64,000 nt of DNA from Plazaster borealis (taxonomy: Eukaryota; Echinodermata; Asteroidea; Forcipulatida; Labidiasteridae), in assembly GCA_021014325.1 (NCBI GenBank), contig CM037470.1, positions 6,165,647-6,229,646 on the forward strand. Reading direction: 5' to 3'. Shown one piece after another: positions 5,224-59,383 of the stretch. The notes under the pieces are model-generated. The model was not told the DNA's origin. It made no database searches and was given only the letters and a program-made list of their open reading frames with translations. Made by a program: the position numbers and the translations under genes. Position 1 is the first letter of the stretch, and each line of letters opens with the position of its first letter.

Positions 5224-5604
5224 TTAAAGGCACTGAACACGTTTGGTAAGTGTCAAAGACCAGTGTTCTCACTTGGTGTATCCCAACATATGCATAAAAT
5301 AACAAGCCTGTGAAAATTTGGGCTCAACTGGTCATCGAAGTTGCAAGAAAATGATGAAAGAAAAAACACCCTCATCGTTGTACACATCATTGTGTGATTT
5401 CAGATAGGAATAAAAGGCTTCTTGCAAGAAGTCTTTTATTGTTTTGGCAGAGAAATTACCTCTTTCTTAAAAACTACGTTACTTCAGAGGAAGTCGTTTC
5501 TCACAATGTTGTATACTATCGACAGCTCTCTGTTGCTTGTTACCAAGTCAGTTTTATGCTAATATATATTTTGAGTAATTACCAATTGTGTACAGTGCCT
5601 TTAA
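5224..5604 (+). mobile_element. TTAA MITE family A, copy A1
   Basis: Full-length non-autonomous transposon. It starts TTAAAGGCACTGAACACG and ends GTACAGTGCCTTTAA, so both termini are inverted and include TTAA. The CCTGTGAAAATTT box begins 83 bp from the left TTAA. A central hairpin (AAGGCTTCTTGCAAGAAGTC) is centred about 200 bp in. It has no transposase. The 80-residue frame at 5394-5636 is a MITE translation that recurs in other copies. Confidence 0.9.
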
Positions 5605-6050
5605 TATTCAATTGTTTAAAAAACATGATTTCATAATGTTCTACTTTATTTAGAGACACACAATGATTTTAGATGAGAGACAAATATGTTCCTGGTACTT
5701 TGATAATTTGGGTTCACAGTTTCGTCGTGATAGTTTACAGGGTATCAACTTTGATCATGGATTCATGTTCTAGCCACTGAGTTAGATGTGATATTATACG
5801 AATTACTCCCCTCTTTCACCTAGTTGTTCAGAGTTAATACTCTCGAGAACACTGTAAATGTTTTAGTATTTTTTGTGTGTGAGTGTAATATGAACCATTT
5901 GCAGATTGTACTTATGTAGACAGACAATGAGAATATTTTATATCAGTCAACCCGGAAACGCCAAGGTTACCGCACACTTCCTGGGCGGGGATTGTAGCTA
6001 CCATTGCAATGTTACTAGTAAATGAGCAAAGTCAGACCGTTATATGCATG
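5605..6050. other. Unassigned non-coding
   Basis: AT-rich flank before the large tetranucleotide tract. Nothing recognised. Confidence 0.5.
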
Positions 6051-6059
6051 CATCTCACC

Positions 6060-6475
6060 GATTAGCCGACCAAGCAAGCAACCAAACCAAAAAGCAAGTA
6101 ACCAAACAAGCAAGCAAGCAAGCAAGCACGCAAGCAAGCAAGCAGCAAGCAAACGTAAAAGCAAGCAAACAAACAAGCAAGCAAGCAATCAAGCTGCAAG
6201 CAAGCAAACGAACAAGCAAGCAAACAAACAAACACGCAAGCAGGCAGGCAATCAAACAAGCAAACAAACGAACAAGCAAGCAAGCAAGCAAGCAAACAGC
6301 AAGCAAACAAGCACACAAGCAAACACACGAACAAGCAAGCAAGCAACCAGGCAAATATGCAAGCTGCAATCAAGCAAGAAGGCAAGCAAGCACGCAAACA
6401 ACTAGCGAACAAAAGAAAATAAGACGGCAAGCATCCAATTAATCAAACAAACAAGCAGGCAAGCAAACAAGCAAT
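6060..6475. repeat. Degenerate CAAG/CAAA tetranucleotide repeat
   Basis: Long tract built from CAAG with CAAA and CAGG variants, almost free of T on the + strand. All frames read as Lys/Gln/Ala/Ser/Asn or Leu/Ala/Cys low-complexity strings, so the four frames of 104 to 132 residues are not genes. It grades into the CCAA tract that follows. Confidence 0.95.
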
Positions 6476-6497
6476 TTATTGAGCAAAACAGCAAAAA

Positions 6498-6751
6498 AAC
6501 AACCAACCAACCAACCAACCAATCAACCAACCAAACAACCAGCCAGCCAACCAATCAACCAACCAACCAACCAACCAACCAACCAACCAACCAAACAACC
6601 AACCAACCAACCAACCAACCAACCAACCAACCAACCAACCAACCAACCAACCAACCAACCAACCAACCAACCAACCAACCAACCAACCAACCAACCAACC
6701 AACCAACCAACCAACCAACCAACCAACCAACCAACCAACCAACCAACCAAC
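6498..6751. repeat. (CCAA)n tetranucleotide tract, left block
   Basis: About 60 nearly perfect CCAA units with a few early variants (ATCAACC, CCAGCC). It reads as a Pro-Thr-Asn-Gln tetrapeptide repeat on + and Gly-Trp-Leu-Val on -. It joins directly to the CCCA block. Confidence 0.97.
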
Positions 6752-6942
6752 CCACCCACCCACCCACCCACCCACCCACCCACCCACCCACCCACCCACC
6801 CACCCACCCACCCACCCACCCACCCCCCCACCCACCCACCCACCGACCCACCGACCCCCCCACCCACCCACCCACCCACCCACCCACCCACCCACCCACC
6901 CACACACCCACCCACCCACCCACCCACCCACCCACCCACCCA
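6752..6942. repeat. (CCCA)n tract with G-quadruplex potential on the minus strand
   Basis: About 48 CCCA units, interrupted by a C run near 6822 and by CCGA and CACA variants. The minus strand is (TGGG)n, which meets the G3+N1 pattern for parallel G-quadruplexes many times over; the plus strand could form i-motifs. It is flanked on both sides by CCAA blocks, as expected if a C substitution in one unit spread by slippage inside an older CCAA array. Confidence 0.97.
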
Positions 6943-7080
6943 CCAACCAACCAACCAACCAAGAAACCAACCAACCAACCAACCAACCAACCAACCAACC
7001 AACCAACCAACCAACCAACCATCCAACCAACCAACCAAACCAACCAACCAACCAACAAACCAACCAGCCAACCAACCGAC
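6943..7080. repeat. (CCAA)n tetranucleotide tract, right block
   Basis: About 33 CCAA units with variants AAGAAACC, ATCC and CAAACC toward the right edge. Homopurine interruptions are rare, so the array probably still slips. Confidence 0.95.
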
Positions 7081-7085
7081 CAAGA

Positions 7086-8042
7086 AACTTGCTTCAGTAG
7101 GTTTGTAATGGAGAAAACGGCGATGATTTCAATGCAATCATTGTTTGTTTACGACTGGGTAATCCATTTAGCTCCATCTTGCAAATTAATTAAAACAATT
7201 TCTTGACAAATCGTTTACGCAGAAATCCATTCCATCATCGTTGTCATTTCAAAAGAAAAATGGGACGATTTTCAACAAAGAGGGTACGCCTCGATTGCTG
7301 AATGGGATCTCCTGTTTACAACTAGAATGGCGCGAAAACAGACTATAGGCTATTATGTCATTAGCGAATACCAATCCATCTAGATCCCCACAAGTCAAAT
7401 AACACCTCATTACAAGGGGACGTAGTTTTACATCATCAGCCATTGACAATAAATTGGATTTAATGATGCACCCACATTTCTTAGAAACCTCCCAAGTTCA
7501 TCTGTTAGGGGTGTAAGACAATACACTACACAGCCAAATGCCGGTAAACTATCGCCATGGGGGTCAAAACATGCTTTTTATATACGAATCGCAATTTGAT
7601 TTTGTTGTGGAAATATATATTGGCCGGCTATTGGTATGAACAATCATGATTTGTATAAACATTATACCTTTCTTTTTGCAACGTCACAGCTGCGAGTTTT
7701 GCCAAACCAGTGATTGGTAAAAGTACTGGCGGCTTTCATTGCAAAGTATACAACAGTTTACTATTTGACTAATCATACTATTAATATCCATGTTACTGAT
7801 ACATACAAATCACTGTCCAAAACAAAGAGTAAACTTATAATTCATAACAAATTTTTAAAATGTTTTTACTAGAAAGGGAAAAGGCAGGCCAGTTTATGCA
7901 TTTTAGTCACTCAAGGCGTCTCATACAAAACGGTGGTGAATATTTGTAAACAAAAGAAAGGTCTATAAAAGTCTTGATGTTATTTTCAGAAAACACCACT
8001 TTTAGAAGATGTTTTGAATCTTGTATCAGTAGAAATCTCTAC
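7086..8042. other. Unassigned non-coding
   Basis: Non-repetitive by eye. The only frame, 66 residues on the minus strand at 7249-7449, has no motif. Nothing else supported. Confidence 0.5.
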
Positions 8043-8292
8043 ACTGTATAAACACTCATGGGTTAGAATTGATTCGGATTCAGTGTCCCGTGAGGCCTGA
8101 CCCCATTTCGGGGTCAGTATGATCTGGAATCTTTGTCAAAGTTACCCAGAAGTGGGTCAAACCGAAGCAGAATCCGATTTAAAATCAACTTTGCAAACCA
8201 CTTTCCAGGTCAATCTGATCCAGAATTGGTCAAGGGCCCTGGTACTCGGAATCCGGGTCAATTCTGACCATGGAGTTTTTAGAGTGTATACG
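8043..8292. mobile_element. GGGTCA-type inverted-repeat element, copy G1
   Basis: The left end reads CACTGTATAAACACTCATGG followed by GTTAGAATTGATTCGGATTC. The reverse complement of the right end reads CACTCTAAAAACTCCATGG followed by TCAGAATTGACCCGGATTCC. These are imperfect terminal inverted repeats of about 40 bp. The interior consists of short GGGTCA/TGACCC-containing subunits. The overlapping frames at 8119-8390 are repeat translations. Related copies lie at 19078-19330 and flank the 48-kb minisatellite. Confidence 0.7.
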
Positions 8293-8576
8293 AGTCGTAA
8301 ATAAATCAGAGTACTTTCACTCTGTTGTAGCTTGACTCTGACGTCATTCATAGCTATACTGCCCATGCCTTGGCCTGACTGAGGACACATCTAATAAAAG
8401 CTTTTCCGGGTGGTTGAAATTTTGGAGCACCTGTGGAGGTACGGGTAACAAACCTGTCTGCCAATTCGTATAATGATCATAACATTAATTTGTTTCTTTC
8501 ATTCTGATAAAAACATCCAACGTCTATAGCAAATGCATTGCAAACTTTTGAGCTGGGGGGGGGGCAAAGCGAGGTT

Positions 8577-8680
8577 GTTTCATAGAGTTGGTTATGATGG
8601 AAGCCTGCTTCAAGCTGTACATTGAACTTGGGCAAGTCTCGCGCGTATCGAAAATGACTCGAACGGAGACTCTATGAAAT
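8577..8680. mobile_element. Small inverted-repeat fragment related to family L
   Basis: TTTCATAGAGT at the left and ACTCTATGAAAT at the right form a short inverted repeat. Inside lies GCAAGTCTCGCGCGTATCGA, which matches the terminal arm of L1 (31877-32028). It is probably a composite or rearranged remnant. Confidence 0.4.
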
Positions 8681-9044
8681 AAAATCTTCTTTTAAATTAT
8701 ATTGAAGTAACAATCTTGAAAATAATAGCAATTTGTTATAAATACAATTTAGATTGTTACATAATACAAATAATTTTGTTAAAATTATCTTGAAACAAAA
8801 TTAAAACTTGGGTCTAGGATTTTGAAAAAACCCATTTGCCAACCACGCCCGAAGTTGTGCAACCATTACAATTTATTTAATTATAACATGAACGTCAGTT
8901 CGGCACAATTATTATGTTTACACGTAACCGGAAACGGAGGTCAAGTCTTCTTCTCTGGTTTCCTTTGTTGATTTTTTAAACTTATATTGCTTACATATTT
9001 CCCATGAAAATATTTTTACTTTCCTAACAATATGATATAATTGT
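8681..9044. other. Unassigned non-coding
   Basis: AT-rich sequence with no frame or repeat recognised. Confidence 0.5.
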
Positions 9045-9163
9045 TATAGCACGTTAAACTAAAGTATTTGAAGAAACAGAATTTCGCACACGTAAAACTC
9101 AATAATGGTTGGGACCAACTTGGTCCCTGCAGTTCGAATACGCGCGAGCACAGTCTATATCAA
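9045..9163. mobile_element. Family L foldback element, copy L2 (half)
   Basis: The right part, GGTTGGGACCAACTTGGTCCC followed by GTTCGAATACGCGCGAG and ending CAGTCTATA, matches the right arm of L1 at 31877-32028. The left arm is degraded. Confidence 0.55.
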
Positions 9164-9316
9164 AGTTGCCCGTGATTGGGGAGGGAGTGTAAGGACGGGG
9201 CAAGAAGCCCCCTTTATCACCCTTCAACTGGCTACTCACTGCTGTTCGATGTCTGTAGATAAAGGTTGGATGGATGAGGGGGTGGGGGCGTTCAGTGGTG
9301 TCTCACCAGTGACCAG

Positions 9317-9616
9317 TCAGATACAAAGTCCTGTCTGACCAATCCAAATCTCGGATTGCTTAAAGGGCAAACGACGTCTTGAAATACAAGCAGTGGGTTT
9401 CTCTGCTCTGACGTGTCTTGTGGATGTCTGCGCCCTCTCGTTCCCTCTCTCTCCCCCTTGTATGTTTTTGGTACGGCTAAGCAGTCGTCCCAGTTCAACC
9501 TTAGCCCCCTGATTCGTCCAAATTCGAAAGTTCCTCTGGACTACTGATTGAGCTTCCGGGCCGGGCCGAGGAATAACACACGACAGAAATAGAATGAGCA
9601 AGGCGATAGGGTTCAT
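9317..9616 (-). CDS. Possible first exon of a secreted protein (unconfirmed)
   Basis: Not recognised as a known protein. The minus-strand frame begins with a stretch that looks like a signal peptide: MNPIALLILFLSCVIPRPG, i.e. a short polar start, a hydrophobic core of about 12 residues and small residues before PGPEAQS. A G occupies position -3 of the ATG. The patch is visibly richer in GC and CpG than its flanks, as early exons often are. After roughly residue 38 the frame becomes basic and low-complexity, so the true exon may end near an AAG/GTTGAA junction. The IPRPGP stretch faintly resembles the end of 2A-like signals known from echinoderm retrotransposons, but the conserved NPGP asparagine is absent. 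It could equally be a chance frame. Confidence 0.2.
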   Translation of the reverse strand: MNPIALLILFLSCVIPRPGPEAQSVVQRNFRIWTNQGAKVELGRLLSRTKNIQGGERGNERAQTSTRHVRAEKPTACISRRRLPFKQSEIWIGQTGLCI

Positions 9617-9802
9617 ATCGCAGGGCTGGGGGTATCTGTGTGTCTCTTGTTTAAGATGGTAGACAAAGGGAGCAATGGAAAACGGGAGAAGGGGAAAGGG
9701 ACTATTCTTAAAAAGTTAGACAAATACCACAAGGTGTTTTCTTATTCAACATGCCCATTAGTGGGGGCAGATAGAAGACATATGTGGCGGAATTTTGTCT
9801 TA

Positions 9803-10007
9803 GATACAAGCACGTAAACTGGCACACAATCAGAGTATGTTACAATAAAGATATTTTATTGTTAGAGGGCCATCGCAATTTTGAGTTTTGCTTGTTATAC
9901 TACCTACATTTGTTCAAAGGACAAATCTGCGATGGCCCTCGAGTCTAGCCAAATATCTTTCTCATGACATACTCTGACTGTATGCCAAATTCTATGCTTG
10001 TATTATC
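9803..10007. mobile_element. Foldback MITE N
   Basis: Two long inverted arms. The left arm has GATACAAGCACGTAAACTGG, CACACAATCAGAGTATGT and AAAGATATTT, then GAGGGCCATCGCA. The right arm carries the complements in reverse order: TGCGATGGCCCTC, AAATATCTTT, ACATACTCTGACTGTATGCC and CTTGTATTATC. The whole 205 bp can fold into one interrupted hairpin. No coding capacity. Superfamily unknown because no clean target duplication is visible. Confidence 0.8.
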
Positions 10008-10281
10008 AAAGGCATAATCCATCACCTGTATACACGCTGTTCTAATGTAACACAATTATAAAGGGAGATGCATGTCCCAAAACGAGACTGTATGCAATAA
10101 ATGATAACTGTTTGAAGGCAATTTCTCAGTTACATTTAACATATATCTAGTATAATTTCCAGAACGGTTTCCACGAATTGATTTTCTGAAATTTGTTTAT
10201 GTATATGACAAAAACGTTTCAATGAACCAAGTTATATTAAAAAAAAACATTCACAGAAAATGACGATACCTCGGGCAATTG

Positions 10282-10780
10282 TAACGTGAGTACATGGAAT
10301 TACTCGTGAGTAACCATGGAATGTCACATGAGGAACCATGGAGTAACATGTGCGTAGCAACATAATGTCACGCGAGTAACCATGGAATGTCACGTGAGTA
10401 ACCATGGAATAACACGTGAGTAACACTAGAGGGTCACGTGAGTAACCATGTAATGTCACGTGAGTAACCATGGAGTAACATGTGAGTAGCAACATAATGT
10501 CACGCGAGTAACCATGGAATGTCACGTGAGTAACTATGTAATGTCACGTGAGTAACCATGGAGTAACATGTGAGTAGCAACATAATGTCACGCGAGTAAC
10601 CATGGAATGTCACGTGAGTAACATTGTAATGTCACATGAGGAACCATGGAATGTCACGTGAATAACCATGGAATGTCACATGAGTAACCAGTGGAATAAC
10701 ACGTAAGTGACAAAAGAATGTTACGCAAGGAAACATGGAATATCACTCGAGTGAGTAACTATGGAATGTGGCGTGAGTAT
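10282..10780. repeat. 22-bp minisatellite with CACGTG E-boxes
   Basis: About 22 units of consensus CATGGAATGTCACGTGAGTAAC. Three landmark variants (CATGGAGTAACATGTG) start at 10337, 10469 and 10557, spaced 132 and 88 bp, which are exact multiples of 22. This shows higher-order structure. Many units contain the palindromic E-box CACGTG and CCATGG. The 97-residue frame at 10232-10525 on the minus strand is a repeat translation. Confidence 0.95.
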
Positions 10781-17813: not shown

Positions 17814-18181
17814 TTAAAGGCACTGAACACGTTTGGAGATTGTCAAAGATCATTGTTTTCACTTGGTGTATCCCAACATATGCATAAAATAACAAGCCTG
17901 TGAAAATATGGGCTCAATTGGTCATCGAAGTTGCAAGAAAATGATGAAAGAAAAAACACCCTTGTTGTACAACTTTGTGTGCTTTGAGATAGGAATAAAA
18001 ACTTCTTGCAAGAAGTTGTTTTAGTGAGAAATGACCTCTTTCTCAAAAACTACGTTATTTCAGAGGGAGTCGTTTCCTACAATGTTTTGTACTATCAACA
18101 GCTCTCCGTTGCTTGTTATCAAGTAAGTTTTTATGCTAATATTTGTTTTGAGTCATTACCAAACGTGTACGATACCTTTAA
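17814..18181 (+). mobile_element. TTAA MITE family A, copy A2
   Basis: TTAAAGGCACTGAACACG left end and CGTGTACGATACCTTTAA right end. The CCTGTGAAAA box lies 83 bp from the left TTAA. The central palindrome is AACTTCTTGCAAGAAGTT. The right half is of the GAGTCATTACC subtype also seen in A5, A8, A9 and A10. Confidence 0.9.
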
Positions 18182-19330: not shown

Positions 19331-19352
19331 CATTATCTTTGAATCTTTGAGC

Positions 19353-19706
19353 TAAAGGCACTGTACACGTTTGGTAATTACTCAAAATATATATTAGCAT
19401 AAACACTGACTTGGTAACGAGCAACAGAGAGCTGTTGAGAGTATAAAACATTGTGAGAAACAACTCCCTCTGAAGTAACATAGTTTTTGAGAAAGAGGTA
19501 ATTTCTCATAAAAAAAAAAAAGAATTCTTGCAAGAAGTTTTTATTCCTATCTGAAAGCACACAAATTTGTACAACAAGGGTGTTTTTTCTTTCATCATTT
19601 TCTTGCAACTTCGATGACCAATTGAGCCCAAATTTTCACAGGCTTGTTATTTTATGCATATGAGAACGCTGGTCTTTGACAATTACCAAACGTGTACGAT
19701 GCCTTA
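19353..19706 (-). mobile_element. TTAA MITE family A, copy A3
   Basis: Reverse-oriented. Left end CTAAAGGCACTGTACACG, right end ACGTGTACGATGCCTTAA. The part equivalent to CTTGGTGTATCCCAAC is deleted, shortening the element to 354 bp. The central hairpin is expanded by an A run (AAAAAGAATTCTTGCAAGAAG). Confidence 0.88.
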
Positions 19707-20284
19707 AAGTATCAACATTGGTGTCATCTGCTGCCTTGTTTAATGTACTCCGTTTTAATCAATTCGTGTCTGAACTGAATTGTTTTGAAATGATATGCTA
19801 CTATAGTAACATATTTCCAAATTAAATCAGTTCAGATACATATTTAATTCCATGCTTTTATGAGAAAAAACAACAAATACATGTCATGATGGAGTAATCA
19901 TAACAACAAATGGTTGATAATTGTTATTGGTGCTTGTATACTCTCTTTGAATCAAGATAAGGTACAACATTGCAACTAGAACCGCTGTTTATGTAGATAA
20001 AGAGTGAGTACATTCAAACTTAATGGCAATCTTTTGCAGTACACTATGTTTGTTGATTGGAAGACAACGAAGTTGTGGCTAGATTACAATGAACTGTTAT
20101 GATTAGCAGCAAGACTCATCCAAACCAATAAATAGTCATCTAGTTCCTCTGTTTCGGTTTCGACATTTAGGGTGTTTAACAATTAGTTATACATATTTGT
20201 TTCTCCACCTGTTACTTCTCTACATGCTCACCAGCCGTACGTAAAAAAAACACACCCAGAAAACACCCCCCAAAAAACCACAAA
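19707..20284. other. Unassigned non-coding
   Basis: AT-rich with no frame or repeat recognised until the CAAA/CAA tract. Confidence 0.5.
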
Positions 20285-22620: not shown

Positions 22621-22664
22621 CTCCCAAGATGAAAAATAGTTAAAACTATTTTTCATCTTGGGAG
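22621..22664. repeat. Perfect 44-bp palindromic hairpin
   Basis: 21-bp arms (22621-22641 CTCCCAAGATGAAAAATAG + TT; 22644-22664 its exact complement) separated by only AA. No mismatch. It can extrude as a cruciform or, if transcribed, fold as a short stem. Confidence 0.95.
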
Positions 22665-25674: not shown

Positions 25675-26050
25675 TTAAAGGCACTGAACACGTTTGGTAG
25701 TTGTCAAAGACCAGTTTTCTCACTTGGTGTATCCCAACATATGCATAACAAAACAAGCCTGTGAAAATTTGGGCTCATTTGGTCATCGAAGTTGCAAGAA
25801 AATGATGAAAGAAAAAAAAACCCTGTTGTACACATTTGTGTGCTTTCAGATGGAATAAAAGGCTTCTTGCAAGAAGTCATTTATTATTTTAGTGAGAAAT
25901 TACCTCTTTCTCAAAAACTACGTTACTTCAAAGGAGGGAGTCGTTTCTCACAAATATACTAACAGCTCTCTGTTGCTCGTATAAATACCAAGTCAGTTTT
26001 TATGCTAATATATGTTTTGAGTAATTACCAAACGTGTACAGTGCCTTTAA
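25675..26050 (+). mobile_element. TTAA MITE family A, copy A4
   Basis: TTAAAGGCACTGAACACG to GTGTACAGTGCCTTTAA, both ends intact. The hairpin core is GGCTTCTTGCAAGAAGTC. It has small local duplications in the right half (AGGAGGGAG, TATAAATACC). Confidence 0.9.
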
Positions 26051-28793: not shown

Positions 28794-29229
28794 TTAAAGG
28801 TTAGGGTCAAAGATTGGCTTTCGTCAATAATGCTTATGAATAGGCCAAAATATAAAGAAAGGCACACTAAAAGGAACATGCGAAAGTTTCAGCTAAATAC
28901 AGTGTCTACTTTCTGAGAAAACAGAAGAAGAAGAAATGCCATGGTATCTTCATAAGAACGTCAAATCCATTCACTTTTAGCGAGGTGACAGCGGGTACCA
29001 ACCGTATCTCTGGGCGCAGCAATCGTGAACGGACACCAACCCTCAACAAATCTGAGAAACGATTCATGCACGAATCGTTTTCGAATGTTTTGGGGTGAAC
29101 AACTATCCAAACCATATTACTTCGAAGGGATTTCTTTCTCAAAACAGTTTGCTGTGCTTTTCCCCAAGTAAGTTTAAAATGGTCATGATTTTTTGGGGAG
29201 TATTTACCAATCTATGACCCTACCTTTAA
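28794..29229 (+). mobile_element. TTAA MITE family E, copy E1
   Basis: Left end TTAAAGGTTAGGGTCAAAG followed by ATTGG; right end CCAATCTATGACCCTACC followed by TTTAA. These are clear inverted ends. The CATGCGAAAGTTTCAG box (the equivalent of CCTGTGAAAATTT) begins 83 bp in. A central hairpin is GAAACGATTC/GAATCGTTTTC around 29071. Its right TTAA doubles as the left TTAA of A5. Confidence 0.8.
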
Positions 29230-29598
29230 AGGTATCGTACACGTTTGGTAATGACTCAAAACAAATATTAGCATAAAAACTTACTTGGTAACAAGCAACG
29301 GAGAGCTGTTGATAGTAAAAAACATTGTAAGAAACGATTTCCTCTGAAGTAACGTAGTTTTGGGGAAAGAGGTAATTTCTCACTAAAATAATAAAAACTT
29401 CTTGCAAGAAGTTTTTATTTTTATCTGAAAGCACACAAATTTGTACAACAAGGGTGTTTTTTCTTTCACAATTTTCTTGCAACTTCGATGACCAATTGAG
29501 ACAAATTTTCACAGGCTTGTTATTTTATGCATATGTTGGGATACACCAAGTGAGAACACTGGTCTTTGACAATTACCAAACGTGTTCAGTGCCTTTAA
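29226..29598 (-). mobile_element. TTAA MITE family A, copy A5
   Basis: Reverse orientation. TTAAAGGTATCGTACACG at the left, CGTGTTCAGTGCCTTTAA at the right. The core hairpin is AACTTCTTGCAAGAAGTT. It abuts E1 through the shared TTAA at 29226-29229. Frames of 92 and 102 residues here are MITE translations. Confidence 0.9.
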
Positions 29599-30278
29599 AG
29601 CATGTACGTTTTATCCTTGTACGCCAGCCTCATTCCCTCATAATCCCACCATATGCAGAAATCAACCCAGACCCACAAAGCCGTATGATATACACGATAC
29701 CTCGAACTGTATCCGTTCTGCGTGTAAGATAACGTCGCCGAACTTCAGGATATCCGGTGACATTTCTATTTAATACGACTGTCAAAGTTGGTTGTTTTTA
29801 AAGTCCCTGCTATTTCCTTGTTCTTCCCATTGCCAATTGTGTGAATTTAATCGAAGAGAACGGAGAGTCAGCTATCGGATGGAGTGAGCTTATATCATTT
29901 GACACGATTTGAGATCGATCTTTGAAAGTGATGAAAAGCTACGCGTGTTAGGACGTGCTCGATCCTCAATACGGGAATGCCACATATGTACAGAGTACGA
30001 ATTATTTGCTGAAGGAAAACAAAAAATAACAAAAAATAAGAATTTTGCACATGTTGTAATTTTTGTTGAATACGATACAGATCAATTCATGAAAAACATT
30101 CGAAATTAGAGAAAAATCACCGGATTCCATTTAAGTTTTTTTAACGGGTGAAAAAACCTTTCATTAATCGAAGCATATAGAAATATCAATTAAAGATACA
30201 TAAATACACACATTGACGAACACATACAAAAAAGAACTGCGCCAAACATCCCACAAACAAACTGAAAAGAAATTGCTT
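29599..30278. other. Unassigned non-coding
   Basis: A 66-residue frame at 29909-30109 has no motif. Nothing else recognised. Confidence 0.5.
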
Positions 30279-30675
30279 GAAGGGTGTGTATACGTTTGGT
30301 AGTTGGAACCCATTGTTTGTTTCAATCCTATATAATTGTAGATATATACCATAAAACTAACCTGTGAAAATTTAATTTCAAAGGTGGTAGCGTTTTTGAG
30401 ATAATTGCCGAAAATCTTGAGTGGTTATGCCACGCAGAAAGAATAATCTGCAATTGGAATACCCGGTACACAATCTGAGAAACGTTACTGCGGTAACACT
30501 TCTCAGATTCAAATTTTTGGGGATAAAAAGTGATATCTTTTTCCATAACAGCAGTACTTCGAAGTGAAACGTTTCTCAAAATGCATTATATTCAAAGCTG
30601 CTGTACTTCTTACCAAGTAAGTTTTCGTTGCCATTAATTTTTCAGAGTCATTACCAAACGTATACAGACCATTTC
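30279..30675 (-). mobile_element. TTAA MITE family B, copy B2
   Basis: Ends AGGGTGTGTATACGTTTGG and CCAAACGTATACAGACC are inverted. The CCTGTGAAAATTT box lies at 30361, about 84 bp from the left end. The central hairpin is AATCTGAGAAACGTTACTGC/GTAACACTTCTCAGATT. The terminal TTAA is mutated on both sides. The 83-residue frame on the minus strand is a MITE translation. Confidence 0.82.
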
Positions 30676-32407: not shown

Positions 32408-32785
32408 TTAAAGGTCACCTGTGAACGTTTCAGTTGAATACTTTGTCTATTTGTTGAGAAGAAGAAGAAGAAGAAGAAAAAGAAAGAAAGAAAAACAATA
32501 ACGAGAAAATCACGGGGTAACAGCCGGTACCAACTGAATGTCTGGCCATATTGAGAGCAGCATTGAAATGGACACCACGGAAAGTCGCCTGCAGGCGATC
32601 TTTGAAGATTCAAATGTGTCGACATACGTTTTATTAATTGCCAGTCAACGGGGGGCGCTTCAGACGAAACAAGTTCGCAGAATGCTTACTGGCCATTACC
32701 ATTTTTACAACAAGTAGGCTTTTTGATAAAGATTACACATTAATTTATGTTCAGGGTCATTACCAAAGTATAACCCTACCTTTAA
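32408..32785 (+). mobile_element. TTAA MITE family E, copy E2 (left-truncated)
   Basis: It shares with E1 GTGAACGTTTCAGTTGAATA, a GAAGAAGAA microsatellite, GTAACAGCCGGTACCAAC and the right end GTATAACCCTACCTTTAA. A different hairpin sits in the core: TCGCCTGCAGGCGA near 32590. The left TTAAAGG is only 9 bp from the CCTGTGAA box, so about 75 bp are missing. Its right TTAA is shared with A6. Confidence 0.75.
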
Positions 32786-33157
32786 AGGCACTAAACACGT
32801 TTGGTAATTGTCAAAGACCAGTATTCTCACTTGGTGTATCCCAACATATGCATAAAGTAACAAGCCTGTGAAAATTTGGGCCCAAATTGGTAATTGAAGT
32901 TGCAAGAAAATGATAAAAGAAAAGCACCCTTGTTGTACAAATTTGTGTGCTTTCAGATAGGAATAAAAGGCTTCTTGCAAGAAGTCTTTTATTATTTTAG
33001 TGAGAAATGACCTCTTTCTCAAAAACTACGTTACTTCAGAGGAAGTCGTTTCTCACAATGTTTTATACTATCAACAGCTCTCTGTTGCTCGTTACCAAGT
33101 AATTTTTTATGCTAATATATATTTTGAGTAATTACCAAACGTGTACGGTGCCTTTAA
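32782..33157 (+). mobile_element. TTAA MITE family A, copy A6
   Basis: TTAAAGGCACTAAACACG to GTGTACGGTGCCTTTAA. Core hairpin AAGGCTTCTTGCAAGAAGTC. It abuts E2 through the TTAA at 32782-32785. Confidence 0.9.
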
Positions 33158-35368: not shown

Positions 35369-35764
35369 TTAAAGGGCTTTATACGTTTGGTAATTACTCA
35401 TAAAATTAATGGCAATAAAAACTTACTTGGTAAGAAGTATACAGCAGCTTCAGATAATGCATTTTGAGAAACATTTCACTTTGAAGTATATATGATGTGG
35501 TTATGGAACAAAACACAAAAAATCAGTTTTGATCCTTAACCATTTGAATCTGAGAAGCGTTTCTGTCAGAAATGTTTCTCAGATTGTGTATTCCAATTGC
35601 AGATTCTTCTTCTTGCGCTCAAGATCATTGTCGGCAGTATCTCAAAAACGCTGCCACCTTTTGAAATGAAATTTTCACAGGTTAGTTTTATGTATATATC
35701 AACAACTATATGGGATTGAAACAAACAGTGGGATCCAATTACCAAACGTATACAATCCCTTTAA
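35369..35764 (+). mobile_element. TTAA MITE family B, copy B3
   Basis: The most complete B copy. TTAAAGGGCTTTATACGTTT at the left and CGTATACAATCCCTTTAA at the right. The core hairpin AATCTGAGAAGCGTTTCTG/CAGAAATGTTTCTCAGATT is centred about 197 bp from the left TTAA, the same position as in family A. No coding capacity. Confidence 0.88.
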
Positions 35765-37552: not shown

Positions 37553-37929
37553 TTAAAGTCACTGTACACGTTTGGTAATTACTCAAAACAAAATTACATA
37601 AAAACTTACTTCGTAACAAGCAACGGAGAGCTGTTGATAATATAAAACATTGTGAGAAACGACTCCCTCTGAAGTAACGTAGTTTTTGAGAAAAAAGGTA
37701 ATTTCTCACAGAAATATTTGAATCTGAAAAATACTTCTTTTTCATGCATCTGAAAGCACACAATATTGTGCAACAAGGGTGTTTTTTCTTTCATTATTTT
37801 CTTGCAACGTCGATGACCAATTGAGCCCAAATTTTCACAGGTTTGTTATTTTATGCATAAATATGTTGGGATACACCAAGTGAGAATACTGGTTTTTTGA
37901 CAATTACCAAACGTGTTCAGTGCCTTTAA
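37553..37929 (-). mobile_element. TTAA MITE family A, copy A7
   Basis: TTAAAGTCACTGTACACG to CGTGTTCAGTGCCTTTAA. The core differs from the AACTTCTTGCAAGAAG form: it reads TTTGAATCTGAAAAATACTT, with a weaker hairpin. The 94- and 74-residue frames are MITE translations. Confidence 0.88.
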
Positions 37930-41183: not shown

Positions 41184-42369
41184 GAATATAGCCTGTGCTG
41201 TCTTGTTTTTCTATTATGATTTATTTATCACGTCGGAACCCAGTCGCTCGTCCCACGCAAAACTTTTAATGTCCAAAATGTCAGAGGTTGAACGATGTTT
41301 TTTTTTCTTCTTTCTATTCCTTGCCTTAACGTTGATAGCACATTAAAGCCCGGCCATAATTGGTGACGAGACTGTTAATTTTCATCCTAACCACATTTCC
41401 CCATGCCATTCGTCAAAAAATTTGCTAGCAATACTTCTTTTCTCTCTGCCCCCCCCCTCCCTCCAACATGACGGTCACGTTTAAGAGCTCCACGCGTCTC
41501 GGCCAACTGACAGGTTCTTCTAAGACCCTGTCTTGTGAAATAGGTGTACACAGGAAACCATGCAATCGCTGCGGGTTAAACATCGGTTTCGACTACTTAA
41601 TAACAACATCCTATATATCAGCCGGGTGGACTAGCCACTCTGTTATTTTGTGACCAAAAAAAATCTCTATTTCTTTCTTAAAGAGGAGAGCATAAATTAG
41701 TCTAAAAGTGGAATCAAACATAAGATAATCCAGAGTTAAACCAGGGCGACGGTCTCGTATTTGGTTGAAAATTTCACTCTTAATCCCTGCTGGGTGTTTT
41801 AATGTTCCCTTTCCGAGTTCCCATGACAGCTGATCACGATAACATCATTAGAGATTTATGCCCATATTATTTCTTAAGTCATTTAAGTGGGAGACCAAAT
41901 AAATAGATTATTGTTTCTATACACCATAGGCGAGCTGTACTTTTCTGTGCGTATAGTTTTTCTTTCTCAGAGTGGCAGTTTTGTTCACGTTACATAAATC
42001 CTACTCCGATCAATGGGGTTTCCCTTTGTGTTCATTTATCTTCTCAAAACGTGAGCTTAAAACGACTTATAGAAACAAATACTTGAGGATAAATTTCAAT
42101 TTTCTCTGAATGCAGAATCTGCTGTGTTGGCCACACTGGATTTTTTTGAGCAGCTGTTTTTAATTTAAGCTTCTGTATAAAATAAACCCAAATGAACCGA
42201 GACTCTGCCGTTTTGTGCCAAGTTCCATGTGCAACCCATACCTGTTGCAACCGCGGCTTGTTTCCGCACACAAAGTGAGTGACAGACTTTTCAGAAGCTT
42301 CTACCAATTAGCGATTATTTGTTTGGCAAATTCAACAACTGGTTTTACATGTAGACATCGTGTTGCTTT
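41184..42369. other. Unassigned non-coding
   Basis: A C run at about 41449-41457 (CCCCCCCCTCCCTCC). Frames at 41119-41346, 41468-41653 and 42044-42307 are short and without motif. Confidence 0.5.
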
Positions 42370-42739
42370 CGCACTGAACACGTTTGGAAATTGTCAAAGA
42401 CCAGTATTCTCACTTGGTGTATCCCAACATATGCATAAAATAACAAGCCTGTGAAAATTTGGGCTCAATTGGTCATCGAAGTTGTAAGAAAATGATGAAA
42501 GAAAAACACCCTTGTTGTACAAATTTGTGTGCTTTCAGACAGAAAACAAAAAACTTCTTGCAAGAAGTTTTTATTATTTTAGTGAGAAATAACCTCTTTC
42601 TCAAAAACTACGTTACTTCAGAGGGAGTCGTTTCCTACAATGTTTTATACTATCAACAGCTCTCCGTTGCTTGTTACCAAGTAAGTTTTTATGCTAATAT
42701 TTGTTTTGAGTCATTACCAAACGTGTACGATACCTTTAA
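42370..42739 (+). mobile_element. TTAA MITE family A, copy A8
   Basis: The left TTAA is lost (TTTCGCACTGAACACG); the right end CGTGTACGATACCTTTAA is intact. The core is AACTTCTTGCAAGAAGTT with a local change upstream (GACAGAAAACAAA). The 97-residue frame is the MITE translation also seen in A2, A5 and A13. Confidence 0.9.
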
Positions 42740-43900: not shown

Positions 43901-44280
43901 TTAAAGGCACTGAACACGTTCGGTAATTGTCAAAGACCAGTGTTCTCACTTGGTGTATCCCAACATATGCATCAAATAAAAAGCCTGTGAAAATTTGGGC
44001 TCAATTGGTCAACGAAGTTGCAAGAAAATGATGAAAGAAAAAGCACCCTTGTTGTACAAATTAATTTGTGTACTTTCAGATAGGAATAAAAACTTCTTGC
44101 AAGAAGTTGTTATTATTTTAGTGAGAAATGACTTCTTTCTCAAAAACTACGTTACTTCAGAGGGAGTCGTTTCCTACAATGTTTTATAGTTTCAACATCT
44201 CTCCGTTGCTTGTTACCATGAAAGTTTCTTATGCTAATATTTGTTTTGAGTCATTACCAAACGTGTACGATACCTTTGAA
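43901..44280 (+). mobile_element. TTAA MITE family A, copy A9
   Basis: TTAAAGGCACTGAACACG to CGTGTACGATACCTTTGAA; the right TTAA is mutated to TTGAA. Core AACTTCTTGCAAGAAGTT. It contains a duplicated TTAATTTGTG next to the core. Confidence 0.9.
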
Positions 44281-51195: not shown

Positions 51196-51985
51196 GTTTG
51201 ACCAGCAGTCACAGTGGTTCATATAAATCAGAGAAACCATATCAACCCGATAAAACATTATTTTTCATTTTTGATATCGGTGTTTGTGTCAATTATGCAC
51301 CAAAGGCTGTCACACGAGTATTTTCTGCTTGGAAGCAGTCTATTAGAAAAGTGAATTGAAACTATTATGTAAATTCGTGTCGATAAGTGAAGATGACAGG
51401 GCCGAATTTTTATTCAGGTTTAGAACGAGAGGAGGAAGAGCCACAGGGGAAACAAGACAAGGTGATCCATGTGTGCAGGAAGACTCCCCCGAGCCCACCT
51501 AATAATAACCCTCATAGGGATATGAGGGGGAGGAGTGGACCCCCTCCCATATTTGCCGACCCTAAAACTGCTTCACCGAGACCTTTCGAAATTGATACAT
51601 CCATTTTTATGGAACTGAGGGACTTAATGTATAGTATTGGAAATGAAAATGAGTAATTGGAATTGAAGTAACCGAATTAATAATTGGATTCTTATCTGAC
51701 TTGAAAGCAGTGTCTTGTGATACTCCATCATGGTGTGTTTTCGCGGCTGTAATCAGTAACTGTTTCGCCCATTGGCCAGTGATAGCTAATGACCAATTCA
51801 ACCGATATAGTTTTGGGTTACGACAGCGAAAACGCGTCCCTTTTCATTTTTTCGAACGTGGTTGTTTGGCATAAAAAAATACATCAGATCAGAAGTAGTC
51901 CACTGTGTTGATTTGTTATTGATCTATTACCTGATTGATTGATTGTTTTTTATTTTGATTTTTATCCTTTTTAAACACCTTGGCA
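51196..51985. other. Unassigned, with one protein-like frame
   Basis: Plus frame 51387-51656 (about 89 codons, upstream stop at 51383, first ATG at 51393) looks more protein-like than most: acidic start (EREEEEPQGKQ), Pro/Asn middle (CRKTPPSPPNNNP), and an end with FEIDTSIFMELRDLMYSIG. It is not recognised. It could be the tail of a retroelement or transposase protein, or chance. Confidence 0.25.
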
Positions 51986-52324
51986 TAAAGGCACTGAACA
52001 CGTTTGGAAATTGTCAAAGACCAGTGTTCTCACTTGGTGTATCCCAATATATGCATAAATTAACAAGCCTGTGAAAATTTGAGCTCAATTGGTCATTGAA
52101 GTTGCAAGAAAATGATGAAAGAAAAAACACCCTTGTTGTACAAAGGAGAAGTGTTTATTATTTTCGTGAGAAATTACCCCTTTCTCAAAAACTACGTTAC
52201 TTCAGAGGGAGTCGTTTCCTACAATGTGTTATACTATCAACAGCTCTCCGTTGCTTGTTACCAAGTAAGTTTTTTATGCTAATATTTGTTTTGAGTCATT
52301 ACCAAACGTGTACGATACCTTTAA
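51986..52324 (+). mobile_element. TTAA MITE family A, copy A10 (core deleted)
   Basis: ATAAAGGCACTGAACACG to CGTGTACGATACCTTTAA. The stretch from TTTGTGTGCTTTCAG through the central hairpin is missing (GTACAAAGGAGAAGTGTTTA), removing about 35 bp exactly at the variable core. Confidence 0.88.
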
Positions 52325-52385
52325 GTTCCCTAAAACGGATGGTATTGGAGTTTGAAGTAGAGTTTGCATGAATATTTAACAACTG

Positions 52386-52672
52386 TTAAGGCATGGTATA
52401 CCTTTGGTAATTGTAAAAGACCAGCATCCTCACTTGGTGCATCCCATCACATGCAAGAAAAAACAAACATGTGAACATTTGGGTTCAATTGGTCATCGAA
52501 GTTGCACGAAAATAATGAAAGAAAAAACACCCTTATTGGATAGAATTGTCTGCTTTCAGATATCTGAGAAAGGCTTCATGCCTGCAGCCTTTCTCAGATT
52601 CAAATTTTGTGTGAAAAACTACCCCTTTCTTTAAAACTACATTACTTCAAAGGGAGTTGTTTCTACCAAATA
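52386..52672 (+). mobile_element. TTAA MITE family A variant, right-truncated
   Basis: TTAAGGCATGGTATACC left end, then CTTTGGTAATTGTAAAAGAC and ATTGGTCATCGAAGTTGCAC. The core hairpin is different from other A copies: ATCTGAGAAAGGCTTCATG/CTGCAGCCTTTCTCAGAT (52562-52598, centred 195 bp in). Similarity ends at TTCTACCAAA, so the last 100 bp and the right TTAA are missing. Confidence 0.8.
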
Positions 52673-53264
52673 AAACGGTGAGTTGTTATAATTAGGCTAC
52701 GTTTCTTTTCAGAACCAGTACTACCTCATAGAAATATTATGTTCATGTACAAGGTGTTACCGCAAACTTTACTATACAACAGACATACAAATCATTTATA
52801 ATAAGATAACAAATAAACTATGTGAGAAATTGTTCGGTATACGCATCGCTTAAAGCTGAAAATGTTTCGAGTATAATGGCCAGTTGAGTCCTATCGATGA
52901 TCGATATCATATTAATTTTGATTCTTTCATTATTATTTTGTAATTACGTTGTATTGCTCGATGACGATCCACCCACTCAGTCGTACATTCTCACATGTCT
53001 TAGAACCGTATCCATTCTTTCCTAGTGTTTCCTTTGTTGTTGTTAGACTTAAAATTTTGGAAGCAACCTCTATTAGTTTTGTACACGACTGCCATCCGAG
53101 GACCTACGATAACAACAGCTTCAGAGTCCCTAATATAAAATTATCACGGAGGCTCATGTAATTCAAGTACACGACACACACAATACTCTAACGATAATTG
53201 CCAGTTTCATTTTTCTTTTCTTCTTCTACCTTCAGCCATATTTTAGTTCCCCATAACATTGTAT
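52673..53264. other. Unassigned non-coding
   Basis: TTTCTTTTCAGAACCAGTAC near 52709 recalls the reverse of the family I arm. Otherwise nothing. Confidence 0.4.
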
Positions 53265-54575: not shown

Positions 54576-54639
54576 TATGGCTTTGGGAAAATGGCTAGAA
54601 TAAGACCACCACATATACTTTTTATTTGTTATTGTTTTG

Positions 54640-54745: not shown

Positions 54746-55239
54746 TTCGTGATCCATTGGTTTGATCACCAGAAAGATGTATATGAAACACCTAATATAG
54801 TAAATTATACTGAAAAACTGTATGAAAGTTAAGCACATTTTAACTAGATGTTTAAGGGAAGACACATCCATCACTACCAGGACGGGTAGGAGCGATGACT
54901 CAAGTGCAAGCTCCTCACTTCGTTGGGGAATTTGTGTAATTGTTTTTGTGGGTAAAAATAACTTTTCTTTTGGTACCAGTATCTGAAGTCTGCTCTGAAT
55001 TGACGATCTGATGCGAACGTTCCTCTATCGTTGATGACACACCTTGAACGTATTATAGATACCATCTTTCTGAGCCGTGTTGAGCGCACGTGTCGAGCTA
55101 TTTATAGATACCAAAGTCATCACTCAGAGTTGTCTGATAGTATGAGACAGGCATAACAAATCTTCTTTAAAGGTGTGACACAAATTTATTATTATTATTA
55201 TTATTTTTTTTTTTTTGGAAAATCAAGTTCCAGTCCAAT
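54746..55239. other. Unassigned, with ATT/T tract
   Basis: (ATT)n followed by a T run at about 55187-55217. A 71-residue minus frame at 54874-55089 without motif. Confidence 0.5.
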
Positions 55240-55800
55240 CATCAAGGCCCAATTTCACACAGCTGCATAAAACAGAACACCCCCCCCAAAAAAACAAAAA
55301 AACAAACAAACGACTAAACACCCCAGCGAACAAACAAACAAACAGGATACCAGTCACTTAAGGAACATGTGACATGGTATTTTGGCTGATGACTTTTTTT
55401 GTGGTGAACATAAGCTGTTTACTTTTTGTGTTCTATAAAATAAGGCCCATGACCCAACCTGATAGAGGTGCTTAAAGCAGACAATAGTGCTCAACAATTG
55501 TCTACTGAGCAAAAACAGCAGGAGACTATGCACATAATGGAACATGTGACATGTTATTTTGGCTGGTAACCTTTTTTTCTGGTAAGCATAATCTGGTGGC
55601 GCTTGGCTACCATTTATTTTTTACATGAAATTAGGCCCAGGGCCCAACCTCATTTTATGAGCTGCTTAAGCAGACAATAGTGCTTTAAAATGTTCTATTT
55701 TGCATAAATAAGCAGGATACCAGTCACACATGGTAAACGTGACATGGTATTTGGGCTGGTAACCTTATTTTGGTAAACATAATTTGTCTGTGCATAGCTT
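55240..55800. repeat. GTGACATGG-type tandem array, about 180-bp units
   Basis: Three diverged units with GTGACATG at about 55369, 55546 and 55739 (spacings about 177 and 193). Shared blocks: GGATACCAGTCAC, GGAACATGTGACATGGTATT, TTGGCTGGTAACC, TTAGGCCCAGGGCCCAACCT and TTAAGCAGACAATAGTGCT. A C run and CAAA microsatellite sit at 55277-55345 near the left edge. Sequences of this style are, as far as I recall, frequent in echinoderms. Confidence 0.85.
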
Positions 55801-56495
55801 TAAAATTACATCCGTGAAGAAAGCCAACAAGCTGACAAGTGAATGTTTATTTAATTTTTTCTGTGATCTTCAACAATATTTGGGTATCAATTTTTTACGC
55901 ACCATCTGAGCAAATCTCAAGCATCGCGCTTGCGGTTGCAACCGCTTAATACACATTCTTATATTAAAAAAAAATAGTGAATCAATGTTACTTATTAATA
56001 ACAATCAACCGAATCTACTGCAGACTGCCGTCCAACCAGCAAAATTAATTATACAAGTAAATAACGCGTCGGTTTACAACTCGTCTTCCGATAAATCACC
56101 AACAGTGGTCGGTACCAGAATATGGTACTTTAAATCTTCAAGCCAACCTTCAGTTTTTCGTTTGATTTTGCCAACTCTATGCTTCTGCGTTCCTCACTTT
56201 TCTTCTTCACCAGCACCTTGTGGCTGTAACGCCGCACTGCACTACATCCCAGTGTAGATAACCTTTTGCTGCAAAGGAATTATTCTCCTGAAGACTGAAG
56301 TTGTTGGTCGAATTCATTGTACAAAAAATGTACTTCCAACCTACGTTTCTAGAAGTTGTGTAAACCGACTGATCTCTGATACTGACTGGATAGAAGGTTG
56401 GGCCTATGCGTGTGCACAAGACTACGAGGTCACACACAAGCAGAGGCCATTTTGAAATTTGCAAAAACCCTGTTAAATGTGAAATACTTATTTAT
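55801..56495. other. Unassigned non-coding
   Basis: Overlapping frames at 55985-56257 (+) and 56207-56464 (-), 85 to 90 codons, lack motifs. Nothing else. Confidence 0.45.
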
Positions 56496-56884
56496 TTAAA
56501 GACACTGGACACCTTTGGTAATTGTCAAAGACCAGTCTTCTCACTTGGTGTATCTCAACATATGCACAAAATAACAAACCTGTGAAAATTTGAACTCAAT
56601 TGGTCATCGAAGTTGCGAGATAATAATGGAAGAAAAAAACACCCTTGTCACACGAAGTTGTGTGCTTTCAGATGCTTGATTTCGAGACCTCACGCGTGAG
56701 GTCTCGAAATGAATTCAAATATTTTACTGAGAAATTACTTTTTTCTCAAAAACGACGTTACTTCAGAAGGAGCCGTTTCTCACAATGTTTTATACTATCA
56801 ACAGCTCTCCATTGATCGTTACCACGTACGTTTTTATGCTAACAATTATGTTGAGTAATTACCAATAGTGTCCAGTGCCTTTAA
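56496..56884 (+). mobile_element. TTAA MITE family A variant, copy A11
   Basis: TTAAAGACACTGGACACC to AGTGTCCAGTGCCTTTAA. The central core is a perfect 32-bp palindrome at 56679-56710 (left arm ATTTCGAGACCTCACG), centred 199 bp in. This defines, with A12, a subfamily with GTCACACGAAGTTGTGTGC before the core. Confidence 0.9.
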
Positions 56885-58157
56885 GGAAGGGATTCTATTT
56901 CATTAACAATTTTGTCTTTATTCCTTTAGCTTGTTTACGCCTACATTATGTTATTTCATTCGTTGTATACATACACGGTACGCGTTGATAATGTGCTGTC
57001 ATGCAACCTTCGAAATGGCGTCCACTAAACTCAAAAAGACATGCAACCCGCTATAGAGATTGTTAACCATGCGATGATCTTTTCCTGACCCTAGACAGAA
57101 GTCACCACTTGAGGGCGGATCAATATCCAAAAGATTTCCAGTAGTGCACGGTGGGGGGGGGGGGGGGATTATGATAATATAGGGCAATGGAAAGAATAAT
57201 AACATGTTGATATTCAGAGGTTAGAGGGGGTCTAATTTGCCTCATTCGTTGCTTCCTTCCGCCCCTTACTTGTTTGCTTGTTGTGTGGACTCCAGCTTGA
57301 ATGCGACGACTGACACACCGCTCTGGTTGACACGGATTCCTACTACGGGTCAATTATTGTTCTGTTTCACACACAGCTGCCGGTACCTGTCCGTAAAACA
57401 AGAAGAAGAACCAGTGTGATCAAGAACATAACACGACAGCAATCTCACATGAAGCGTTAGCTTTGATAACAAGTGCATGAACCCAGAAAAGTCTCTGAAA
57501 AAAGTTAAAGTGACACTGGATTTTATTAGCTCTCTTTTACTAAGTGGATCAATATTGTTGTTCGAAGGCTTTTCAGCTGCTTTTCAACTCAATCATAAAA
57601 ATGAGTAGGATTTTTGCCCAACAAATTAATCAAGTTTATTATGTCAGTTACCCTTGTGGTTTATCACATAAAAAGGAAAGCTGGAAGAAAGTGTGTTATT
57701 GATTGAAAGAGCAAACTTTCATACACGTGTTTGTGAAGATAAGGAGAAGACACATAAAGTAAAACTTATTATTCAATAGGTTATTTAAAATGTATATGAA
57801 CTCAAAGAACATTAACACGGATAGAGTCGTAGTATTGTTTAAAAAATGTTTTTACAAATAATAACAGACAATGAGTATCTGGATTTGTAATTGATTTGGT
57901 ATTGATTAGCATTTCTTAATACATGTAAAAAAAACACACCTAAAAATACCACTATTAGGTAAATGTTACTTAAACACGAAGGATAATGAAACAAATACAA
58001 AGAACTATTCAGGTTAATGCTGAAAACAACTCAAACGTAACAGCTCGGCATTGTATGGATTTGTCTGCTCAATTTACACTAATTCAGGTTATTTTGTATG
58101 TTGCTTTAAAGGGACATCGAACATACGGAAATCTATACAATTTGTTCCCCCAGATCG
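56885..58157. other. Unassigned, with G run
   Basis: G run at about 57153-57167. Frames at 56999-57205, 57120-57353 and 57237-57419 cover a GC-richer patch without known domains. The rest is AT-rich. Confidence 0.5.
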
Positions 58158-58332
58158 CAAATATTTATGTAAAGATTTACGATTTAGAGCACAAATCGTG
58201 ACTATTCACGTAAATATTTACGTGAAAACTCGCGACACGTCCAAAATCGTGAATTTGTACGTAAATGTGAATATTTACGTAAGGGGCACAAATCATGAAT
58301 ATTTACGTCAATATTTACGTAAATATACGATG
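58158..58332. repeat. ACGTAAATATTT palindrome cluster
   Basis: Three loose units of 45 to 55 bp, each with a CAAATCGTGAAT-like block followed by one or two ATTTACGTAAATATTTACGT-type palindromes. TTTACGT or ACGTAAA occurs about eight times in 175 bp. The open frames at 58051-58486 (KYLCKDLRF, NIYVNIYVNI) are translations of it. Confidence 0.85.
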
Positions 58333-58999
58333 TCCTTTGAAAGTCACCATAACATTTGTGATGTCGGGGTATAATACGTGTTCAGATCAACAGGCAAGAG
58401 AATGGCTGATTTCAACCTCTAGCTATGCACTATCGTCAAGCCGTCAGCTGGCCTTACGGAACCTATCCCGACTGTCGCATCTTTGAAGTCCGGAACTGAA
58501 CAAATTGTTCCGAATCCCGTGTAAATGCAGCAGGAAACGTCTGCCAAATAGCGTGTCAGTTGATATTATCTTTGGAACTTTGAAATGCGTGATGTGATGT
58601 GAGGTTTGACAATCACTTTGAAAAGAGAAAGAGATGGAAACATGATAAATAAAACTTTTATAAACATGCCTATAGGGGTTTGGGTTGCAGCTCTGACCAG
58701 AAGCTTCTAAAAGCTACTCCAAAACTCTTTTTCCGAAAATTTTGCTAATATATATTGCCCAAAACTACCTCTCTTCCTTTTCCCCTCTAATGAAGCCCAA
58801 AAGTGGACTTCAATTTTGACAAAGGGTCGAGGCTTTTTTCCTTTTTAAAAATCAGTCCCTGGAATATTAATCTAATTCTTTTTTGATCACTTTTTTTGAA
58901 TTACATATCATTGGCGAAGTTTGGTTGTGCAGCGTAGTGACAAATAACATGAAACCTTTGCCTAATTAACGTGCTTTTCATGGATTATAAAAATTATAC
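58333..58999. other. Unassigned non-coding
   Basis: No repeat or credible frame. Confidence 0.5.
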
Positions 59000-59383
59000 T
59001 TAAAGACTATAGACACTATTGGTAATTGTCAAAGACCAGTCTTCTCACTTGGTGTATCGCAACATATGCATAAAATAACAAACCTGTGAAAATTTGAGGT
59101 CAATTGGTCATCGAAGTTGCGAGATAATAATGGAAGAAAAAACACCCTTGTCACACGAAGTTGTGTGCTTTCAGATGCTTGATTTCGAGACCTCAAAATC
59201 TAATTCTGAGGTCTCGAAATCAAATTCGTGGAAAATTACTTCTTTCTCGAAAACTACGTTACTTCAGAGGGAGCCGTTTCTCACAATGTTTTACTATCAA
59301 CAGCTCCCCATTACTCGTTACCAAGTAAGGTTTTATGCCAATAATTATTTTGAGTAATTACCAATAGTGTCCACTGCCTTTAA
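59000..59383 (+). mobile_element. TTAA MITE family A variant, copy A12
   Basis: TTAAAGACTATAGACACT to AGTGTCCACTGCCTTTAA. Core hairpin GATTTCGAGACCTCA...TGAGGTCTCGAAATC at 59181-59221, centred 201 bp in: same arm sequence as A11 but with a longer loop (AAATCTAATTC). Confidence 0.9.

Follow-up and report, generated by a model that had tools for sequence, protein, structure and literature searches.

Near the centre of short transposons that end in TTAA, in one stretch of the genome of the starfish Plazaster borealis (assembly GCA_021014325.1, contig CM037470.1, positions 6,165,647 to 6,229,646), hairpins of different sequence stand in otherwise conserved surroundings, which raises the question of whether the fold is maintained while its sequence turns over, or whether palindromes are repeatedly replaced at this place. 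The stretch analyzed as a whole (the window) is 64 kb within a 560.6 Mb assembly of 717 contigs, and holds 13 full or nearly full copies and one truncated copy of a family A, three copies of a related family B (that at 3621 is short and that at 30277 is of a C-type), plus several fragments. We found that joint changes in the two arms of the hairpin went with the rise of new subfamilies, and were very rare in resident copies. Probably, selection among amplifying copies maintains the pairing of the central hairpin in this TTAA miniature inverted-repeat transposable element (MITE), and template switching is a possible supplier of the changes.

Consensus core letters were read by eye from aligned copies in the window and from genomic loci fetched by searches of the assembly (L-numbers). 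Judged from the arms, most cores descend from one ancestral hairpin of ~15-20 base pairs and are not unrelated palindromes swapped in. This hairpin (CTGAGAAA...TTTCTCAG) is still recognisable in families A and B and in the fragments of type F, with the outer arm CTGAGAAA present in about seven copies of B and four of F. The consensus arms are CTGAGAAACGATTCATG/CATGAATCGTTTCTCAG in F, CTGAGAAAGGCTTCATG/CCTGAAGCCTTTCTCAG in T4, CTGAGAAAGGCTTCAGG/CCTGAAGTCTTTCTCAG in T6 (with an A-T variant at pair 5), CTGAAAAAGACTTCTGG/CCAGAAGTCTTTTTCAG in T7, AATAAAAGGCTTCTTG/CAAGAAGTCTTTTATT in T1, AATAAAAACTTCTTG/CAAGAAGTTTTTATT in T2, and GATTTCGAGACCTC/GAGGTCTCGAAATC flanking a 13-base loop in T3. Types F, B, T4, T6 and T7 have most of the arm sequence in common and intermediates exist: i) T6 bridges T4 and the other A types, combining T4-like arms with flanks that group with T1, T2, T3 and T7; ii) the arms of the L133 core resemble T1 on the outside and T6 on the inside. 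At pair 10, types F, B and T4 have G-C, types T6 and T1 have G.T, and types T7, T2 and T3 have A-T. T2 is one pair shorter than T1 and the G.T mismatch is gone from it, so that T2 may equally have lost the G.T pair and altered the neighbouring one; if the grouping of T1 with T2 (discussed below) holds, T7 and T2 removed the G.T independently. At pair 5 of T6, read by eye, eight copies have G-C, eight A-T, four A.C and one G.T (Fisher P = 0.024).

Changes between subfamilies were counted over six steps between neighbouring consensuses (F-T4, F-B, T4-T6, the two T6 states, T6-T7 and T1-T2). Eight of the 14 changed pairs were matched on both sides, two of them as paired gaps (Fisher P = 1e-8); among the other six, three were one-sided changes that restore pairing and three break it. 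With the T6-T1 step added, 13 of 20 pairs were matched (P = 1e-12), and for family A together with that step the count was 8 of 13 (P = 5e-9); once the paired gaps were dropped, the six steps had 6 of 12 pairs matched (P = 9e-7). Moreover, when the same number of changes was placed randomly and independently, the observed matched count was reached in 51 of 5,000,000 trials for T4 to T1 and in 12,007 of 5,000,000 for T4 to F. Type T3 was left out of the main counts because its steps used a single copy (56496), the centre of which is unlike the loop of 20 fetched T3 copies.

On the other hand, matched changes were nearly absent within subfamilies. Each of 145 cores was aligned to its own subfamily consensus, and the 22 with at least three stem bases missing were set aside. 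The remaining 123 copies showed 106 one-sided base changes (one of which restores a pair), eight one-sided indels, two two-sided changes that do not pair, and a single matched change; by eye, the 20 fetched T3 copies added four one-sided changes, one insertion and no matched change. A T7 variant with a mispaired arm stands in six places (L126-L130 and L135; contigs C403, C493, C624 (two places), C629 and C22) whose outer flanks are 91-100% identical, i.e., a segmental duplication, and ~98 of the 106 one-sided changes remain when it is collapsed; L118 and L122, with outer flanks 95-100% identical, are also a segmental duplication. The compensatory change that the earlier note on this DNA had proposed to look for in the arms is thus present, as an excess of matched changes.

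The rates of stem and flank change, compared in family A, place an excess of stem change at the origin of subfamilies. Resident T4 copies were substituted at 47 of 900 stem positions (5.2%), with private flank divergence of 5.0 and 6.8%, and T2 copies at 22 of 1410 (1.6%), with flanks at 1.8 and 2.3%; the stem rate is close to the flank rate, and the stem therefore does not look like a substitution hot spot in resident copies, though core deletions were often met. The T4 and T1 consensuses, by contrast, are unlike at 12 of 32 stem positions, against flank differences of 7.4 and 14.2%. Divergence time within family A is comparable (5.0/6.8% versus 7.4/14.2%); the stem excess thus belongs to subfamily origin, and is mostly paired change. 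That the T4 and T1 stems differ so much and are yet paired, with matched changes in excess, agrees with the proposal that the fold and not the sequence is maintained, and suggests that pairing ability, more than the exact letters, matters for spread of the element.

Could mutation alone have produced this pattern? Template switching between the arms (quasipalindrome correction), acting without selection on the hairpin, has been proposed as a mechanism for RNA hairpins, with matched multi-base stem changes in ribosomal RNA and microRNA genes (PMC8794818), and several changes here have the look of single events: i) the pair that T1 has and both arms of T2 lack; ii) the adjacent pairs altered between T6 and T1; iii) the arms of L133. 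However, template switching alone should leave matched changes within subfamilies of similar age as well, where one was found beside 116 others. Selection among amplifying copies would lead to matched changes between subfamilies and hardly ever within them, and mutation alone would not, at least inside family A. The hairpins here also differ from those of PMC8794818 in belonging to a non-coding transposon and in a within/between contrast that points to selection. A purely mutational origin is thus unlikely in our judgement.

Under selection for pairing, the copies whose hairpin still pairs would be those that amplify, and selection for pairing would act through the spread of the element. Template switching from one arm to the other may supply some of the matched changes in one step, with selection then picking the paired products; candidates for such a supply are the changes in which several adjacent pairs were altered together or a base pair was lost from both arms. 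The selected form would more likely be DNA, whether extruded as a hairpin or cruciform or present as matched half-sites, than a one-strand transcript, since one-sided changes yielding G.T and A.C on the same strand are equally common (25 and 24). For the same reason, we set aside the explanation that a transcript of one strand needs the hairpin (as a small RNA precursor or structured RNA): pairing is kept and a G.T step became fixed in T6 and T1, but strand bias is lacking and the window matched no Rfam family at gathering scores, making this explanation highly improbable. As to molecular roles, the hairpin could serve synapsis of the ends, fork stalling that leads to a gain in copy number through excision and repair, or binding of a dimer. 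A more specific form of the idea, in which amplification of a cut-and-paste-type transposon depends on a central extruded DNA hairpin or cruciform chosen for its pairing and each new subfamily carries a rewritten self-complementary core, is no better than tentative.

The matched arms may instead serve a symmetric DNA-binding protein (transposase or host factor) as half-sites, in which case the sequence of each half would matter and the fold would be a by-product. Several lines of evidence are consistent with this: i) the outer half CTGAGAAA is common to F, B, T4 and T6, though the left flanks of the T4 consensus and copy 35369 are only 48% identical; ii) the left and right terminal repeats, judged by eye, vary jointly from subfamily to subfamily, which protein binding would explain; iii) there is no strand bias. 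Yet T1, T2 and T3 are without the outer half-site and still paired, and the left flanks of T2 and T3 remain 91% and 87% identical to T4; with the site lost at such flank identity, a binding protein would have needed a quick change of site. We thus hold half-sites without a selected fold to be rather unlikely.

Core types were further compared with a tree built from the flanks alone (138 copies). T4 (26 copies), T7 (19 copies, five of them being one segmental duplication) and T3 (two copies) were each monophyletic with support 100, and T1 and T2 together (68 copies) with support 93, while T6 formed a grade in which its two pair-5 states were intermixed. Core types therefore map largely onto flank subfamilies, as they would without the core swapping that the earlier note had envisaged, the exception being T1 and T2: the arms of L009:2013, L003:584 and L053:2253 are mixed, a T1 or T2 arm standing with an arm of the other or of an altered kind, and together with five weakly supported misplacements of T2 cores (below) they make exchange between T1 and T2 possible; beyond T1 and T2, the 138-copy tree offered no other case calling for swapping. 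The related idea that unrelated palindromes are repeatedly inserted at one place by a replication or gap-repair process has a possible case in T3, which is unlike T6 in 10 of the 17 pairs aligned about the axis (with copy 56496 alone used for T3) and could be a replacement of the core. As a general rule, however, repeated replacement does not fit, since the other types align through their arms, have intermediates and largely follow the flank tree; we regard it as very improbable, with room left at T1/T2 and T3.

The core hairpin exceeds chance. It was the strongest hairpin of the element in 85 of 90 copies (elsewhere than the core in the other five), with a median score of 12.65; in 270 dinucleotide shuffles the median was 6.2 and the maximum 12.2, and 59% of the copies lay above that maximum. 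The 90 copies were flank-model matches in the window and the loci fetched by then, mostly relatives of two queries, L001 and L031 having been removed before counting as they duplicate the window. Folding of nine typical core sequences gave z between -3.3 and -9.9 on one or other strand.

Several points weigh against selection for pairing: i) family A without the T6-T1 step had only 3 of 7 pairs matched (P = 4e-4), and 2 of 6 (P = 0.005) when the paired gaps were left out too, while the T6-T1 step itself hinges on aligning the arms about the symmetry axis; ii) counting the two T6 states as one subfamily weakened the contrast (P = 7.5e-5); iii) the consensus types number just nine and are related to each other, with F and B drawn from the few copies given above, and the F and B steps are far more diverged than any resident copy, so that the control for time excludes them; iv) RNAalifold on a MAFFT alignment of whole elements gave a covariation term of +1.35, which is not favourable, with five of its nine two-sided pairs falling in the core; v) T2 alone is no clade, five copies with a T2 core being placed within T1 by the flank trees, though weakly supported there; vi) one core-deleted version occurs twice (L086 and L087, which are 97.6% identical and lie 8 kb from each other in unlike outer flanks), and the junctions of two other deletions (L088 and L105) differ by one base at the break. 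As to iv), MAFFT misplaces the arms, and we therefore relied on a manual alignment of them about the symmetry axis; the misplacement also affects the value of 38% identity between the T4 and T2 hairpins. As to vi), the likeness of L086 and L087 at different sites means that a hairpin-less copy may have moved once, in which case loss of the hairpin was not fatal to movement. In total, 21 copies without a normal core (51985 in the window and 20 fetched) had at least 19 different junctions; the deletion copies were fetched with a core-less query (51985) and are thus no random sample.

Three core deletions in this query-biased sample (L089, L094 and L100) have their right end at the hairpin tip, as expected if an extruded hairpin were cut there. 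In L022:2137-2479, a T4-type core carries about seven GGGTTA repeats in the 3' arm, as if a hairpin break had been healed by telomerase, or as if a subfamily carried telomere repeats.

The elements are best read as MITEs, i.e., non-autonomous DNA transposons, with a TTAA target and a likeness to the T2/Kolobok group. Full copies measure ~370-390 bp, are bounded by TTAA and have imperfect terminal inverted repeats; among the 90 copies (those with enough flank), 62 had TTAA within six bases of each end and another 25 had it within six bases of a single end. An empty site with a single TTAA was seen in L061, a further copy of a repeat, when compared with the joined flanks of L005, and matches to the array of L011 were not clean. 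The ends read TTAA-AGG on the left and CCT-TTAA on the right, and are without the terminal CCYT after TTAA of a piggyBac-type MITE. Helitrons are recognised by the absence of target duplication and of terminal inverted repeats and by a hairpin near the 3' end; the TTAA duplication, the terminal inverted repeats and the central position of the hairpin do not fit a Helitron/DINE-1 element. At two fetched loci (L044:1406-2164 and L046:1027-1778) two elements of the family are joined end to end. The family is common genome-wide, as 50 kb from five other genome places yielded three A copies with cores, one B copy, one partial copy and one F-type fragment; first-look candidate counts in the genome were 3897 to 6224 per query, and pattern scans of viral contigs and of prokaryote genome contigs found no copies.

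Several known systems share part of these traits. The T2-MITEs of Xenopus, in the Kolobok superfamily, have a TTAA target, terminal AGGRR and several subfamilies (PMC6004289), and the elements here are like them in target and in having several subfamilies; in A orientation the left end of copy 35369 (family B) is TTAA-AGGGA, in agreement with AGGRR, whereas family A starts with AGGCA or AGACA and deviates at one position or more. No transposase was linked to the elements here, though no search for one was made, and the central hairpin with matched arms found here has no mention in the available text of that report (PMC6004289). DINE-1 of Drosophila has a short hairpin whose stem differs between species, and its authors infer compensatory change (PMC2374699), a reading akin to ours; in DINE-1, however, the hairpin lies near the 3' end, insertion occurs between TT, the repeats are subterminal and the contrast is between species (PMC2374699), whereas the elements here have a central hairpin and TTAA ends with terminal inverted repeats, and are contrasted inside one genome. 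Coral CMITEs also combine a TTAA target with a notable internal region, which is kept across families and suspected of a role in transposition; there the internal sequence rather than the pairing is conserved, the ends are piggyBac-like CCYT, and the words hairpin, stem-loop, palindrom(e) and secondary structure are all absent from the main text (PMC2872659). A literature search on TTAA MITEs and Kolobok, judged mainly from titles and abstract openings and with subscription journals mostly outside its coverage, returned no central covarying hairpin in such an element.

In both families A and B of the window, the distance from the left end (A orientation) to the start of the core hairpin is ~180-200 bp, confirming the constant position described in the earlier note. 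Type T1 cores lie at 5409-5440 (+ strand; copy 5224-5604), 25854-25885 (+; copy 25675-26050) and 32962-32993 (+; copy 32782-33157), with the named string GGCTTCTTGCAAGAAGTC at 5416, 25861 and 32969. Type T2 cores lie at 17994-18017 (+; copy 17814-18181; right arm shortened), 29390-29419 (-; copy 29226-29598; a perfect 30-bp palindrome), 42549-42572 (+; copy 42368-42739), 44091-44108 (+; copy 43901-44279) and 62975-63004 (-; copy 62811-63186), with AACTTCTTGCAAGAAGTT at 18000, 29396, 42552, 44091 and 62981, and copy 19352-19708 (-) has a T2 core with a decayed right arm. Type T3 is represented at 56679-56710 (+; copy 56496-56884), where the palindromic centre is the 32-bp perfect palindrome reported before, and at 59181-59221 (+; copy 59000-59383), where the looped hairpin has GATTTCGAGACCTCA at 59181 and its inverse at 59207. 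The truncated copy 52385-52689 carries a T4 core at 52562-52599 (+) with CTGAGAAAGGCTTCATG at 52564. Family B cores lie at 3698-3729 (-; copy 3621-3921), 35550-35582 (-; copy 35369-35764; CTGAGAAGCGTTTC at 35550) and 30475-30506 (+; copy 30277-30674; C-type). The claim that one copy lacks exactly the core also held, for the family A copy 51985-52324 (+). Two hairpins had gone unmentioned: a shortened one at 37724-37746 (-) in copy 37553-37929, most of whose 20 fetched relatives are T7 with a full hairpin, and a type F hairpin at 29052-29085 (+) in fragment 29054-29229 of a related family.

Other repeats were seen around these cores. Copy 17814-18181 is among the A copies in which the core has a further, smaller inverted repeat (TGAGAAA-TTACCTC-TTTCTCA) directly on its right and palindromes like ACAAATTTGT directly on its left. 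Outside the A and B copies, 22621-22664 is a near-perfect 44-base palindrome (21-base arms, 2-base centre), and long tandem arrays occupy 6046-7200 and 10227-10734 (CCAA-like; 22-base unit).

The internal parts of MITEs are usually regarded as filler between the terminal repeats. Copies in the genome of Plazaster borealis seem to number in the thousands and to differ in age, and would thereby offer a natural test of selection versus template-switch mutation as the source of compensatory change. If selection for pairing is the true explanation, the centre of these elements has kept its pairing while its sequence was rewritten, and DNA secondary structure would be a cis requirement for their spread.

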